Below are positions 48-10,668 of a stretch of DNA of 12,227 nucleotides, in pieces. The notes under the pieces are model-generated. The model had not been told where the DNA came from and did no database searches. It worked only from the letters and a program-made list of their open reading frames with translations. The stretch spans positions 1-12,227 of the forward strand of contig CALVUB010000017.1 in NCBI GenBank assembly GCA_944363385.1, given 5' to 3'. The translations under genes and the position numbers were made by a program. Source of the DNA: an uncultured Clostridia bacterium. GTDB lineage: Bacteria; Bacillota; Clostridia; Christensenellales; UBA1242. Within the stretch, counting starts at the first letter, position 1; every line of letters starts with the position of its first letter.

Positions 48-1874
48 TTATTCAACATCAACAACAGGGTCGCCGTCGTTTGAGCCACCAGCAGAGCCAT
101 TGCTGCCGTCACCATTTGGGTTTGCCCCATTTGGATTTGCCGAACTATACATTTTGCTTACAATGCCGTTTGATGCTGTGGTAAGTTCGTCAAGCGCCTT
201 TTTAACTGTGTCAATATCGTCACTTTCAAACTCTTTCTTAGCTTTTTCAATGGCATCTTGCAATTTTTTCTTGTCATCTTCGCTTATCTTGTCGCCGTTT
301 TCTTTAAGCATTTTTTCAAGGCCATAAACCATGTTGTCTGCTTGGTTTTTGGTTTCAACAAGCTCTTTTCTCTTCTTATCTTCTTCAGCGTGAGCCTCAG
401 CCTCTTTGATAGCCTTTTCGATGTCTTCGTCTTTAAGGTTTGAAGATGCTGTGATAGTGATGTTCTGCTCTTTGTTTGTTCCAAGGTCTTTTGCAGAAAC
501 TTTTACAATGCCGTTTGCGTCGATATCAAAGGTAACTTCGATTTGTGGAACCCCTCTTGGTGCAGGTGGAATGTCGGTAAGTTGGAATCTTCCAAGAGTT
601 TTGTTTTGAGCAGCAAATTCTCGCTCGCCTTGAAGAACATGAATGTCAACGCCTGGTTGATTGTCAACTGCGGTTGAGAAGATTTGTGATTTTTTTGTTG
701 GAATGGTTGTGTTTCTTTCAATAAGTTTTGTAAACACTCCGCCCAAGGTTTCAATGCCAAGAGAAAGTGGAGTTACATCAAGAAGAAGCACATCTTTAAC
801 CTCTCCGCCAAGCACGCCAGCTTGGATTGCAGCGCCCACAGCAACACATTCGTCTGGGTTGATGCCCTTGTATGGTTCTTTGCCAGTGTAAGCTTTGACA
901 GCCTCTTGAACAGCAGGAATACGAGTTGAACCACCCACTAGCACAACCTTATCGATTTGGCTTGTTGAAAGTTTTGCATCAGCAAGAGCGCGTTTTGAGC
1001 AGTCGATTGTTTCTTTTACAAGATCTTCAGTGATAGCGTCAAATTTTGCACGAGTAAGTTCATATTCCATATGTTTTGGCCCAGTTGCATCGGCTGAAAT
1101 AAATGGAAGAGAAATTGTGGTTTTTGGTGTTGCTGAAAGGTCGATTTTAGCCTTTTCTGCAGCCTCTTTAAGTCTTTGCATTGCAAGTTTGTCGGTTGAA
1201 AGATCGATGTTGTTTGTCTTTTTAAATTCTTCCACTAAAAGGTCGATAATTCTGTTATCAAAGTCATCACCGCCAAGACGAGTGTTTCCGTTTGTTGACA
1301 AAACTTCAAACACGCCATCTCCAATTTCAAGAATAGAAACATCAAATGTTCCGCCACCAAGGTCGTAAACCAAAATCTTTTGATTTGAGTTTTCGCCCTT
1401 ATCAAGACCATAAGCAAGCGCTGCCGCAGTTGGCTCGTTGATTATTCTAAGCACTTCAAGCCCAGCGATTTTGCCAGCGTCTTTTGTGGCTTGACGCTGA
1501 GAGTCGTTGAAGTACGCGGACACAGTGATAACAGGTTGAGTGACAGGTGAACCGATATAGCTTTCAGCATCAGCTTTAAGTTTTGAAAGAATCATGGCAG
1601 AAATCTCTTGTGGAGAATATTCCTTGCCATTGAGCTTTACTTTATAGTTTGTGCCCATCTCTCTTTTGATAGATTGAATTGTGTTTTCAGCATTGACAAT
1701 TGCTTGTCTTTTTGCAACTTTGCCAACAAGTCTTTCCCCTTCTTTTGTGTAAGCTACAACTGAAGGTGTTGTTCTGTCGCCCTCAGCATTTGCGATAACC
1801 GTTGGTTTTCCGCCTTCCATAACAGCCACGCAAGAATTTGTTGTTCCTAAGTCAATTCCAATAATTTTACTCAT
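48..1874 (-). CDS. dnaK: Molecular chaperone DnaK (Hsp70)
   Basis: ATP-driven Hsp70 chaperone of the cytosol; it binds exposed hydrophobic peptides and works with DnaJ and the exchange factor GrpE. The 608-aa length is normal for Bacillota. Visible: phosphate-1 loop GIDLGTTNS (residues 6-14), Lys70 in SIKRE, phosphate-2 loop DLGGGTFD (171-178), adenosine motif [10 protein letters not shown], interdomain linker [13 protein letters not shown], beta-sandwich substrate domain, helical lid, and a Gly/Asn/Ser-rich tail ending in acidic VVDVE. The start is the ATG at 1872-1874, preceded by GGAGGG, 4 bp after the grpE stop, so it is the third gene of the CIRCE-controlled operon. Odd point: residue 119 is Ser (codon 1518-1520, TCC) in [10 protein letters not shown], where Hsp70s almost always have VPAYFND; this is the proline-switch position (E. 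coli Pro143). The partner Arg of the switch (R127) is kept. Identification is certain; the effect of Ser119 is inference. Confidence 0.98.
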
Positions 1875-1878
1875 TTTT

Positions 1879-2532
1879 CTAACCCTCCTTTTTATTGACT
1901 ATGACTTTTGCATATCGTATAACTTTTCCGTTTAAAACATAACCTGCTTGATATTCATCTAAGATTATGTCGTCATCTTTATCCGCAACGCTTAAAACGG
2001 CAATAACATTGTGGACATGTGGATTGTATTTTTCACCAATTGAAATGATTTTTTCAACGCCAATCTGCTTAAGAGCTTCATTGATTTTGTTTTCAATCAT
2101 TTCAATGCCTTTCAAAACCTCTGCATCAGAAATAGATTTTTTTGCCTCTTTGAAAGTGTCAAGACATGGCAAAAAGGCTTCAATAACAGAGGCTTGACCT
2201 GAAAAGCGCGCTTGTTTTAAGTCTTCAATTGTCCGCCGTCTGAAGTTTTCAAAATCGGCTTGAATTTGCCGTGCAAGATTTAAGTATTCTTCGCTCTTGC
2301 CATGCTCGCATCCACATTCATGCTCGCGCCTTTCATTTTCACAGTCGCAATTTTCATCGCAGTCACATTCTTTATGCCTACAACAATTTTTGTCATGTTT
2401 TTTGTGACGCTCATGCTCGCACTTGCACTCTTCGTTGCACTTATGCTTATCTGTGCATTTGCATTCGTCAGTGCAGTCGCACTCTCCACTGCAACCACAG
2501 TTTTTCATCTCTTCATTTTGCTCTTTTGCCAT
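1879..2532 (-). CDS. grpE: GrpE nucleotide exchange factor with a Cys/His-rich N-terminal domain
   Basis: GrpE is a homodimeric co-chaperone that releases ADP from DnaK. The core is clear from about residue 82 on: end of the dimer helix with FENFRRRT (94-101), LPCLDTF, PHVHNVI (171-177) and the beta-domain signature [16 protein letters not shown] (197-212). The first 80 residues are unlike ordinary GrpE tails, which are acidic and poor in cysteine: they hold 17 Cys, including seven CxC motifs (12-14, 18-20, 24-26, 36-38, 56-58, 62-64, 73-75), and 7 His among Asp/Glu/Lys. That resembles metallothionein-type metal binding. Part of the usual long dimerisation helix appears replaced. The ATG at 2530-2532 abuts the hrcA stop (TAAATG) and has AAGGAG inside the end of hrcA, so the start is secure and the tail is in the same frame as the core. 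GrpE identity is certain; metal or redox binding is inference. Confidence 0.96.
2302..2499 (-). other. Cys-rich, metallothionein-like segment of GrpE
   Basis: This stretch encodes GrpE residues 12-77, with 17 Cys and 7 His in 66 residues. CxC units recur every 6-20 residues (CGC, CDC, CKC, CKC, CDC, CDC, CGC), joined by short charged linkers such as TDE and NEE. The repetition suggests growth by duplication of a short CxC-charged unit. No sequence family is recognised with confidence; it may bind Zn, Cu or another soft metal, or sense oxidants. Confidence 0.75.
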
Positions 2533-3516
2533 TTATTCTCCTTTTAAGTCTTTAAGACTGTCAATCACAATTTTTAGCGCCGAAGCAATACCCGCATAGT
2601 CCATTCGTTGAGGTCCAAGCACACCAATTGAGGCAAGTTGGTTTCCGTTAACACAAATTGGAGCTTTCATCACCGCACCTTCATCACTTACAACGGCTTC
2701 AATTTTTTCGCCTTCAACTTTGGCAATATCGGCAAGTTTTTGCTCATCATCAAGCACATTCAAAACCCTTTTTGCCTCGTCAACATCTTTGTTGTCAAGC
2801 AGTTTTGCGCTCCCCTCGCGATGAACATCAATAAGTCTGGAATGATTTAACTTTTTCAGTCCATCAATAAGCGAATTGACCACATTTTGGAAGGCTTCAA
2901 TTTCACTTTTCATGCCTTCTTCAAATTGAAAGATGTTGTCCATCATAAAGCCGATTGTTTCGCCTTTAAAGTTTTTGGTAAGATAATTTGAAGCATCTTC
3001 ACATTCTTTTGGACTTGCCTTAATATTCATCTCTTCAGAAATATACCCCGACTTTGTGCCAATCAAAACCATAACTTTTTCACTCAGCATTGGTATGATT
3101 TTAAACTCGCTAAGCACAAAGTTTTCAATTCCATTCATCACGACAACCGTTGGATAAGAAGTCGCCTGCGAGATAATTTTGGCAATGCCACTTACAATTT
3201 CGGTAAGCGAAGTGGTTCGAGAAGAAATCAGCGCCTTAACCTCTTCAAGTTCGCCGTTTGAAGCTGATGAATTTGCAAGCAGGTTTTCAACATAATATCG
3301 ATAGCCCTGCACTGTTGGAATTCTTCCGCCAGATGTGTGAAGCTGTTTTAAATAGCCCATAGCCTCTAAGGCATTAAGCTCATTTCTAAGTGTGGCAGTT
3401 GAGCAATCAAGCTTTGCTTTGTCTTTGACCAAGCCACTTGTGATTGGCGCGCAGTCTTTGATGTATTCTTCAATTGCCATGCACAAAATTTGATTTTTTC
3501 GCTCTGACAGTTTCAT
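2533..3516 (-). CDS. hrcA: Heat-inducible transcription repressor HrcA
   Basis: HrcA dimers bind CIRCE and repress class I heat-shock genes; GroEL normally keeps HrcA active. The protein is 327 aa. An N-terminal winged helix covers roughly residues 1-75 (LSERKNQIL, then STATLRNELNALEAMGYL at 39-56, then HTSGGRIPTVQGYRYYV at 60-76), followed by the GAF-like and dimerisation region ending in a conserved-type GPQRMDYAGIASAL. The ATG at 3514-3516 is preceded by AAAGAGG with a 5-base gap. It is the first gene of the operon and its stop touches the grpE start, implying translational coupling. Its own promoter carries CIRCE, so it is autoregulated. Nothing is broken or missing. Confidence 0.97.
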   Translation of the reverse strand: MKLSERKNQILCMAIEEYIKDCAPITSGLVKDKAKLDCSTATLRNELNALEAMGYLKQLHTSGGRIPTVQGYRYYVENLLANSSASNGELEEVKALISSRTTSLTEIVSGIAKIISQATSYPTVVVMNGIENFVLSEFKIIPMLSEKVMVLIGTKSGYISEEMNIKASPKECEDASNYLTKNFKGETIGFMMDNIFQFEEGMKSEIEAFQNVVNSLIDGLKKLNHSRLIDVHREGSAKLLDNKDVDEAKRVLNVLDDEQKLADIAKVEGEKIEAVVSDEGAVMKAPICVNGNQLASIGVLGPQRMDYAGIASALKIVIDSLKDLKGE

Positions 3517-3541: not shown

Positions 3542-3568
3542 TTAGCACTCTTTTTATTTTAGTGCTAG
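3542..3568 (-). promoter_or_regulatory. CIRCE operator (HrcA binding site)
   Basis: The inverted repeat TTAGCACTC-N9-TAGTGCTAG, read on the plus strand, matches the CIRCE consensus TTAGCACTC-N9-GAGTGCTAA. One arm is perfect and the other has 7 of 9 bases. It lies immediately downstream of the -10 box and covers the expected start site, the usual place for HrcA repression. It belongs to hrcA-grpE-dnaK on the minus strand. Confidence 0.95.
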
Positions 3569-8181: not shown

Positions 8182-8844
8182 ATGTCTTTTTACATTAACA
8201 ATACAAATCCAAACAGACCTGGCCCAATCGGCGGAAATGGTTTAAACGGAATTTGTGAAAAAGTACTTATCGAAACAACAAAAGTTTTTGACGCTTGCGT
8301 AAGCCAAACAACAGAAAGCGGAATAATTTTGCCAGTTACAAACTTCAACCCACCATCACCTGCCTTGCCACTGGCTTACATTTCAGCTCAAAACACATCT
8401 CTCTCGACAGTCACAGTGTCAGACATCACAATTGACAGAATAGAGCAAACGCCAAACTATGCAAATGTAAGCCTGACGCTCACAATTCCTGTGACCGTCA
8501 CCTATCGAGACGCAAATGGCGTGATTGGAACGGCAACTTCAACTTTAACCATTGTAAAGAGCGTGGTTCTCTTTGTGCCACAGCCATCACTCTCACCTGT
8601 TAACATCACCGCCAACGCACTCTTTACAAGTTCAATCGGAGCTTACACTGCCGACAACACCTTTACAGTAACTGGGTGCATTCAAGTGATTGTAAAAGTT
8701 ACTTCTGTGGTTGACCTTCTCGTGCCAAGCTATGGCTATCCTGTAATACCACCTTGCCAAGCTCCAGAGCCTGCCTCTGCCTGCCCTGGTTTCCAAAATG
8801 TGCCACTATATCCAACGGCGAGCGCTTCAAGGACAATAAACTAA
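8182..8844 (+). CDS. Uncharacterised beta-rich protein, possibly a spore/cell-envelope type protein
   Basis: A 220-aa protein with no signal peptide or membrane helix. The first 24 residues are Asn/Pro/Gly-rich. Then come ICEKVLIETTKVFDACVSQ (24-42) and a Ser/Thr/Val-rich region of alternating hydrophobic residues (70-180), which suggests beta strands. The end has VPSYGYPVIPPC (181-192) and CPGFQNVPLYP (201-211). Five Cys (25, 39, 166, 192, 201) are spread out. The start pattern (Cys, then KVFDAC) and the ending (VPSYGY-P-PPC, CxGF, PLYP) recall uncharacterised Clostridia proteins related in style to spore-coat or SPOCS-like proteins, but this is from memory of patterns, not a firm family call. 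The ATG follows AGGGAGG by 6 bases, so the start is secure. It is a single-gene transcript, divergent from prfB, closed by a bidirectional terminator. Function unknown. Confidence 0.85.
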   Translation: MSFYINNTNPNRPGPIGGNGLNGICEKVLIETTKVFDACVSQTTESGIILPVTNFNPPSPALPLAYISAQNTSLSTVTVSDITIDRIEQTPNYANVSLTLTIPVTVTYRDANGVIGTATSTLTIVKSVVLFVPQPSLSPVNITANALFTSSIGAYTADNTFTVTGCIQVIVKVTSVVDLLVPSYGYPVIPPCQAPEPASACPGFQNVPLYPTASASRTIN

Positions 8845-10230: not shown

Positions 10231-10668
10231 ATGAAAACATGTTGTTTTTTTGGAGATGTTAAGATTAAGGATATAAGTCATTGCTACAAATTGTTGTATG
10301 CTTTGATTGACGAAATGATTGCGAAAAAATATACGCGCTTTCTGCTTGCAGATGACAGCGAGTTTGGAGCAATGGCAATTGAAAGTTTTATCATTTTTAA
10401 AGTTAAATACCACCATATTGAAAGAGTGCTTGTGCAATCTGTAAACTTTTATGACCCATATTATATCAAATATTTTGAGCGCTTTTTTGATAGTTTGCTT
10501 TTCAAAAACCTTAGACTAACCCCTTTTGAGCAATACAAGAACATGATTGACAACAGTTCAATTTGCGTGGTTTATTTTGATGAAAATGTGCCATCTATTG
10601 ACATCAAAAAAGCTGTTCAATATGCAAAAGAACATGACAAAAAAGTTTTAAATTTGCACTTTAAATAG
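10231..10668 (+). CDS. Short SLOG-like (DprA/YpsA-type Rossmann) protein of unknown function
   Basis: A 145-aa protein. The layout matches small SLOG-like/DUF1273-type clostridial proteins: start MKTCCFFGD where relatives have CCFxGH, a second strand then helix TRFLLADDSEFGAMAIESF (35-53), a conserved late motif MIDNSSICVVYFDEN, and final helix and strand VQYAKEHDKKVLNL. SLOG proteins share a Rossmann-like fold thought to bind nucleotide-type ligands; some act in stress and defence signalling. Differences here: the His of the GH motif is Asp (residue 9), the glycine in the second loop is replaced (LLADDSEF rather than a G-x-SEF type loop), and the protein is somewhat short. The start follows AGGAGG and TAAAT. 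It is divergent from an XRE regulator, has its own promoter and shares a terminator with fakA. The superfamily call rests on motif recognition, so is moderate; function unknown. Confidence 0.75.
   Translation: MKTCCFFGDVKIKDISHCYKLLYALIDEMIAKKYTRFLLADDSEFGAMAIESFIIFKVKYHHIERVLVQSVNFYDPYYIKYFERFFDSLLFKNLRLTPFEQYKNMIDNSSICVVYFDENVPSIDIKKAVQYAKEHDKKVLNLHFK

Follow-up and report, generated by a model that had tools for sequence, protein, structure and literature searches.

A cysteine- and histidine-rich, metallothionein-like tail on GrpE and on other proteins in a lineage of Clostridia

Results

The grpE locus

The stretch of DNA analysed here (the window, 12,227 nucleotides from an uncultured Clostridia bacterium) is contig 17 of a genome of 764 kb that is 73% complete and consists of 99 contigs. 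It holds a CIRCE-hrcA-grpE-dnaK operon, the expected hrcA-grpE-dnaK context for GrpE, with the following features:

48..1874, reverse strand: dnaK, 4 nt downstream of grpE (PF00012, 835.7 bits)
1879..2532, reverse strand: grpE gene including its stop codon (open reading frame and translation)
1882..2298, reverse strand: GrpE core, residues 79-217, dimer helix and beta-wing (PF01025, 109.4 bits; fold match to 1dkg_B, 4ani_B and 9bls_C)
2299..2532, reverse strand: whole N-terminal tail of GrpE, residues 1-78, with no I, L, V, F, W or Y (translation)
2302..2499, reverse strand: Cys/His-rich, metallothionein-like module, GrpE residues 12-77 (17 Cys, 7 His, 7 CxC; low pLDDT)
2533..3516, reverse strand: hrcA, gene of the heat-shock repressor, directly upstream of grpE, its stop codon abutting the grpE ATG (PF01628, 93.3 bits)
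2538..2543, reverse strand: grpE ribosome-binding site AAGGAG, within the final part of hrcA (in the ribosome-site score, 5 bases match AGGAGG)
3542..3568, no strand assigned: CIRCE-type operator upstream of hrcA

The operator has 2 mismatches to TTAGCACTC-N9-GAGTGCTAA, which we take to be the CIRCE consensus; it is the only match in the window, and none of 200 shuffles contained one.

By profile, fold and context the window protein is a true GrpE. PF01025 matches residues 76-214 far above its cut-off of 25.8 bits, the predicted structure displays the long dimer helix and the beta-wing of the GrpE fold, and all 13 Foldseek matches below 0.001 are of GrpE type. Seven matches below E 1e-4 in a search of solved structures are GrpE proteins aligned through the core, and five weaker ones are unrelated. 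The same core fold is found in GrpE of E. coli, Geobacillus and M. tuberculosis and in human GrpEL1; we know of no Cys-rich belt in the tails of these proteins. The dimer helix of the window GrpE is predicted to begin at residue 78, directly after the tail.

A first-pass annotation of this DNA had described a segment with 17 Cys, 7 His and seven CxC motifs that reads in frame into an intact GrpE core, and this description is exact to the base: 17 of the 66 residues of the module are Cys. Compared with shuffled versions of its own residues, this single tail has a modest excess of CxC (P 0.024). No tandem repeat was found in the tail, and a tandem-repeat artefact was rejected as its origin for that reason. 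Searched alone, the tail matches no Pfam family up to E 10 and no NCBIfam family, so that membership in a known metallothionein family was rejected as well; the tail of one relative scores 16.1 bits against Metallothio_PEC, under the cut-off of 31.8.

Distribution among relatives

GrpE was matched in 57 of 61 genomes of the same genus and in 188 of 197 genomes of the family. Tails were read in 123 GrpEs of the family, each from a different genome (61 of the same genus and 62 of 41 other genera), with genera beyond g1 sampled from the listed matches, one or a few apiece. Start codons were assigned by ribosome-site score, except that L209 and L239 kept an earlier assignment; L010 is cut by a contig end and L246 was dropped as a duplicate. 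When "rich" denotes at least 6 Cys and 2 CxC, 83 of the 123 tails are rich, 7 intermediate and 33 poor. Within the genus the corresponding numbers are 50, 2 and 9, and 22 of the 42 genera contain at least one rich GrpE tail. The outside-family set of 60 loci, composed of the best Pfam scorers from other families of the order or class and thus not a random draw, includes 0 rich, 3 intermediate and 57 poor tails, the maximum being 5 Cys. This maximum belongs to L135, whose 5 Cys lie in an acidic tail (CGCTEECKEDCDC) and may present an independent small case.

The search for tail and GrpE core in related Clostridia that the first-pass annotation had proposed thus reveals a lineage-wide N-terminal extension. 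That annotation had named two things which together would speak against it, an assembly error and ordinary tails in close relatives. The former, or a frameshift, was rejected, because other genomes and assemblies show the same architecture; the latter do occur, as the Cys-poor and intermediate tails within the genus demonstrate, and they mark the trait as labile.

Among the proteins most similar to the window GrpE, 119 of 121 (query included) are rich, and the tail of Candidatus Caccovivens faecavium (L097) closely resembles that of the same-genus genome G030 (L037). Searches based on the tail have low sensitivity, recovering known tails in just 9 of 98, 12 of 61 and 25 of 197 genomes. Over the class genomes such a search matched 3 of 291, all three inside the family, which at this low sensitivity is weak evidence of absence outside it; a tail search by region returned two proteins, one of them the query.

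Composition and conservation of the tails

Rich tails contain on average 19% Cys, 7.5% His, 30% Asp+Glu and 4.2% ILVFWY, against 0.5% Cys, 1.2% His, 30% Asp+Glu and 15.4% ILVFWY in the poor tails of the family and 0.7% Cys and 0.6% His in tails outside it. Cys in the core is near-equal, with 0.96 (rich), 0.91 (family poor) and 1.15 (outside) per protein. The distance from one Cys to the next in distinct tails, counted raw, near-identical strains included and without shuffle comparison, is 2 residues in 1555 of 3374 steps and 4 residues in 766. CxC-G-[DE]-x-CxC and CxC-xx-EN-KC-S-xx-CxC are recurring forms. The number of Cys in rich tails ranges from 6 to 33, and several tails have more His than Cys (C/H of 11/24 in L205, 14/28 in L207, 8/18 in L209 and 11/22 in L230). 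The ratio of about two to one in these four may point to a shift in metal preference. An adjacent hydrophobic pair is present in 16 of 83 rich tails, versus 22 of 29 poor and 26 of 54 control tails, the latter two counted among tails of 20 or more residues.

When relatives were compared in 37 pairs, no tail entering twice, 513 of 580 Cys columns and 1095 of 2018 other columns were kept, in an alignment that favours Cys-Cys pairing; Cys codons underwent 206 silent versus 67 Cys-replacing changes. Five gap-free pairs differed in 2 of 68 Cys columns and in 29 of 309 others (P = 0.09), with 7 silent and 2 replacing changes of Cys codons. Eight close relatives of equal length are invariant in 19 of 19 Cys columns versus 52 of 64 others. 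The Cys residues are thus likely under constraint, within a tail that is fast-evolving overall. In a quick tree of the GrpE core (135 rows, 139 columns, many unresolved forks) the rich/other state changes 21 times, at least 10 of the changes being forced by starred branches, and the Cys-rich trait accordingly appears clustered but labile. Genera g2, g16, g29 and g41 make up one starred group of tail-poor GrpEs, where two long branches meet.

Other carriers of the module

Whole-genome searches with the module yielded 52 match loci (some genes being counted repeatedly), 46 in GrpE and 6 elsewhere, so that every one of them lies in GrpE or another carrier and none in a free-standing small protein. 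The six belong to four kinds of protein, listed here together with a trigger factor of G075 that was found by a separate trigger-factor search:

Three g2 genomes (G061, G198, G208): trigger factor with a CxC-rich extension at its C-terminus, found by module search
L366, 1501-2895, reverse strand: the trigger factor of G061 just listed; L365 and L369 are likewise trigger-factor loci with the extension
L386 (G075, g16): trigger factor with the module followed by a Lys/Thr-rich tail
L262 (G096, g37), 1042-1812, reverse strand: Jag/KhpB protein whose linker, ahead of the KH domain, holds a CxC-rich insert
L264 (G125, g41), 1495-1791, reverse strand: DUF1858 protein of 99 amino acids, the smallest carrier, with a CxC-rich C-terminal tail
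L371 (G202, g18), 1501-2115, reverse strand: protein without Pfam match, with a CxC-rich C-terminal tail

Trigger_N, FKBP_C and Trigger_C all score over their cut-offs in the one g2 protein scanned. In the Jag/KhpB carrier R3H does so, with KH_KhpA-B and Jag_N just under theirs. The trigger-factor gene of L366 adjoins frames that resemble clpP and clpX by eye.

The trigger-factor search covered 30 genomes, with GrpE tails that are Cys-poor in 25, intermediate in 1 and unread in 4, and found the module on trigger factor in two of them, G061 and G075. A large protein set queried with that tail contained fourteen module-bearing trigger factors, some from the same genomes. Seven genomes have another carrier, and the GrpE tails read in four of them (G061, G075, G096 and G125; those of G198, G208 and G202 are unread) are devoid of Cys.

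In the genome of the window, the homologues of trigger factor, Jag and DUF1858 have no CxC. Scanning of 613 of its 764 kb (60 of the 99 contigs, the three longest to 20 kb) flagged 10 frames, among which GrpE is the sole credible bearer; by eye, the remaining nine looked like noise or antisense frames. A genome-wide Cys habit was rejected on this basis for the part scanned. Contig 1 of G050 (290 kb) holds no frame that was judged credibly Cys-rich by eye. G095, with a GrpE tail free of Cys, yielded no clear replacement module among 40 frames listed from 775 kb of about 893 kb. At least 40 frames were flagged there; nine of the 40 listed reach a density of at least 7 Cys per 30 residues, and all 40 were dismissed by eye except one. 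The exception, a 354-aa frame in L436 (4419-5480, forward strand), has a His/Cys-rich loop with 5 Cys in 30 residues.

In view of G095 and of the low yield of the trigger-factor search, a strict swap of carriers in every genome is unsupported. The case of G095, combined with the frequent changes of the trait, suggests that the module is not needed everywhere. Judged by the proteins that bear it, the module is not tied to GrpE and appears to be portable.

Discussion

As far as sequence can tell, the tail looks like a disordered acidic chain with regularly placed CxC and His. Such a chain resembles the ligand belts of metallothioneins, and most likely the tail binds metal. In being Cys-dense, in its CxC motifs and in its few hydrophobic residues it agrees with metallothioneins in the broad sense. 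That the window tail matches no metallothionein family counts against such a reading. Metal binding is expected to order bacterial metallothionein chains. Examples are known from Pseudomonas (PMC7387436). Bacterial metallothioneins of the BmtA/SmtA/NmtA type (PF02069) are likewise Cys-rich with added His; they are small free proteins, whereas the module described here extends GrpE or other proteins, has no PF02069 match and, unlike that type, combines acidic linkers with Cys at regular distances of 2 and 4 residues. A profile search that detected the Synechococcus control found PF02069 in 0 of 98 family genomes.

The best explanation, and on balance a probable one, is that the module is a portable, metallothionein-like device that buffers soft metals. 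The tail would be an intrinsically disordered belt of thiolate and imidazole ligands. Inside these gut Clostridia, whose cytosol would be reduced, it would fold around several ions of soft metals, with Zn(II), Cu(I) and Cd(II) as the probable candidates, and its main job would be the buffering or scavenging of metal. GrpE may have become a carrier because it shares the HrcA/CIRCE operon with DnaK: the two would be produced jointly and increase under proteotoxic stress, which metal excess would cause; the GrpE dimer would offer two belts and thereby doubled capacity. Carriers would be chosen for their expression, some relatives using trigger factor, the Jag/KhpB linker or other proteins. We infer metal binding, the identity of the metal, the buffering role, induction by stress or metal, and dimerisation: induction via HrcA/CIRCE follows from the operator-like site, metal wrapping from established metallothionein chemistry, and buffering or scavenging, as the simplest function, from similar belts on unrelated proteins. 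A possible point against buffering is that a buffer should prefer abundant proteins.

The first-pass annotation mainly favoured a coupling of metal or redox stress to DnaK through the GrpE dimer. In the form considered here, a metal-gated co-chaperone, metal would compact or cross-link the two tails at the tip of the GrpE stalk and alter their contacts with the substrate-binding domain of DnaK, changing substrate release or nucleotide exchange and coupling metal stress to chaperone activity. In its favour, the N-terminal tails of E. coli GrpE are described as acting on this domain by binding the substrate groove via a hydrophobic IIM motif (PMC12915176), and the helix predicted for the window GrpE starts right behind the tail. 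The window tail has nothing comparable, as it is devoid of I, L, V, F, W and Y; the motif, IIM in E. coli, does not define the family. Rich tails mostly have no hydrophobic pair, so tail function may have changed along with the gain of Cys, but the pair is also absent from 28 of the 54 control tails. According to a 2025 review, the tail has not been seen in the DnaK cleft in any structure, and direct insertion is unproven (PMC12987570). Against this explanation stand also the wide range of Cys number among rich tails and the trigger factor, Jag/KhpB and DUF1858 carriers, for which a GrpE-type effect on DnaK is unexpected. These and other carriers suggest that GrpE is dispensable for the action of the module. 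The proposal that the tail acts on DnaK exchange by way of the GrpE dimer is left unsupported; we regard it as unlikely, and buffering, which the same annotation named as an alternative, fits better.

We consider it quite improbable that the thiols form a redox or electrophile sponge or switch, forming disulfides or capturing oxidants, nitrosating agents or electrophiles and thereby switching GrpE or protecting the cell. Such a role has parallels: vertebrate GrpEL2, a GrpE-type factor, is proposed to be redox sensitive through thiol-based regulation, there via one stalk Cys as opposed to a Cys-rich tail (PMC12987570), and metallothioneins can scavenge reactive species of oxygen and nitrogen as well (PMC7387436). 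His, however, rises together with Cys (7.5% vs 0.6-1.2%), as would be expected of a metal site but not of a purely redox role, and where it exceeds Cys it fits metal ligands better than redox thiols; the lineage is, moreover, presumably strictly anaerobic. CxC at a spacing of 2-4 with many acidic residues resembles metal-thiolate belts and not CxxC redox pairs, and the pattern of the tail is of the former kind. Chaperone-linked tails might instead supply metal, such as Zn, while proteins fold on DnaK or trigger factor, the recipients being clients or the zinc sites of DnaJ. GrpE and trigger factor, the two carriers seen most often here, both serve folding chains. The heat-shock chaperone HspA of H. 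pylori is described as nickel-scavenging (PMC8779794). Jag/KhpB and DUF1858 proteins carry the module too, and such metal delivery seems very unlikely to us. Least probable of all is a neutral, functionless expansion, in which slippage at repeats would have packed Cys codons into an acidic, disordered tail. Very variable tail length, the existence of relatives without a tail and the non-significant result for Cys columns in gap-free pairs would suit it; the mostly silent changes of Cys codons, also in gap-free pairs, the invariant Cys columns of the eight close relatives and the absence of tandem repeats from the window tail speak against it.

Metal-binding folding factors have precedents in SlyD and in H. 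pylori HspA. E. coli SlyD is reportedly a folding factor with a Cys/His-rich, metal-binding C-terminal tail, and by that description it resembles the trigger-factor version of the module. The metal-binding extension of HspA is also said to be C-terminal. HspA, of GroES type, is a chaperone component tied to nickel scavenging (PMC8779794) and is thus similar in joining a metal-binding extension and metal scavenging to a chaperone component. It differs in the chaperone and the metal (Ni) and is not known to have up to 33 Cys in a CxC series. GrpE tails in general are known as disordered and variable, with a debated role (PMC12987570; PMC12915176). Among the matches listed in a search of titles and abstract starts of open-licence papers, which targeted the topic only partly, no Cys-rich tail of GrpE or trigger factor is described.

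More tentatively, and as a possibility that we would not call probable, the lineage may have swapped free metallothioneins for a portable, carrier-swapping module. Its main hosts would be proteostasis factors, with GrpE serving in many genera and trigger factor in g2 and g16, and elsewhere it would sit on other proteins. In the GrpE case the module might have displaced the hydrophobic pseudo-substrate motif, physically merging metal storage with the DnaK cycle, with metal load perhaps tuning substrate release. The relatives present a natural experiment, in which the GrpE tail was rebuilt as a probable metal belt in many species and a similar belt is found on another folding factor in some relatives. 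If the proposal is true, metal homeostasis would be linked to the chaperone operon in gut bacteria in whose genomes (0 of 98) PF02069 was not detected, and tail-rich and tail-poor GrpEs of one genus would be matched pairs for testing the function of the GrpE tail. These cells may store or neutralise metals using tails attached to other working proteins.

Other frames in the window

Three further frames of the window deserve mention. At 8182-8844 (forward strand) lies a 220-aa frame with zero Pfam matches, on the strand opposite to its neighbours, and at 10231-10668 (forward strand) a 145-aa frame with a sub-threshold match to DUF7625 only. A gene of the NMN-transporter family (PF04973; 4984-5733, reverse strand) overlaps by 4 nt with the frame of a tsaD-like gene, named by eye.
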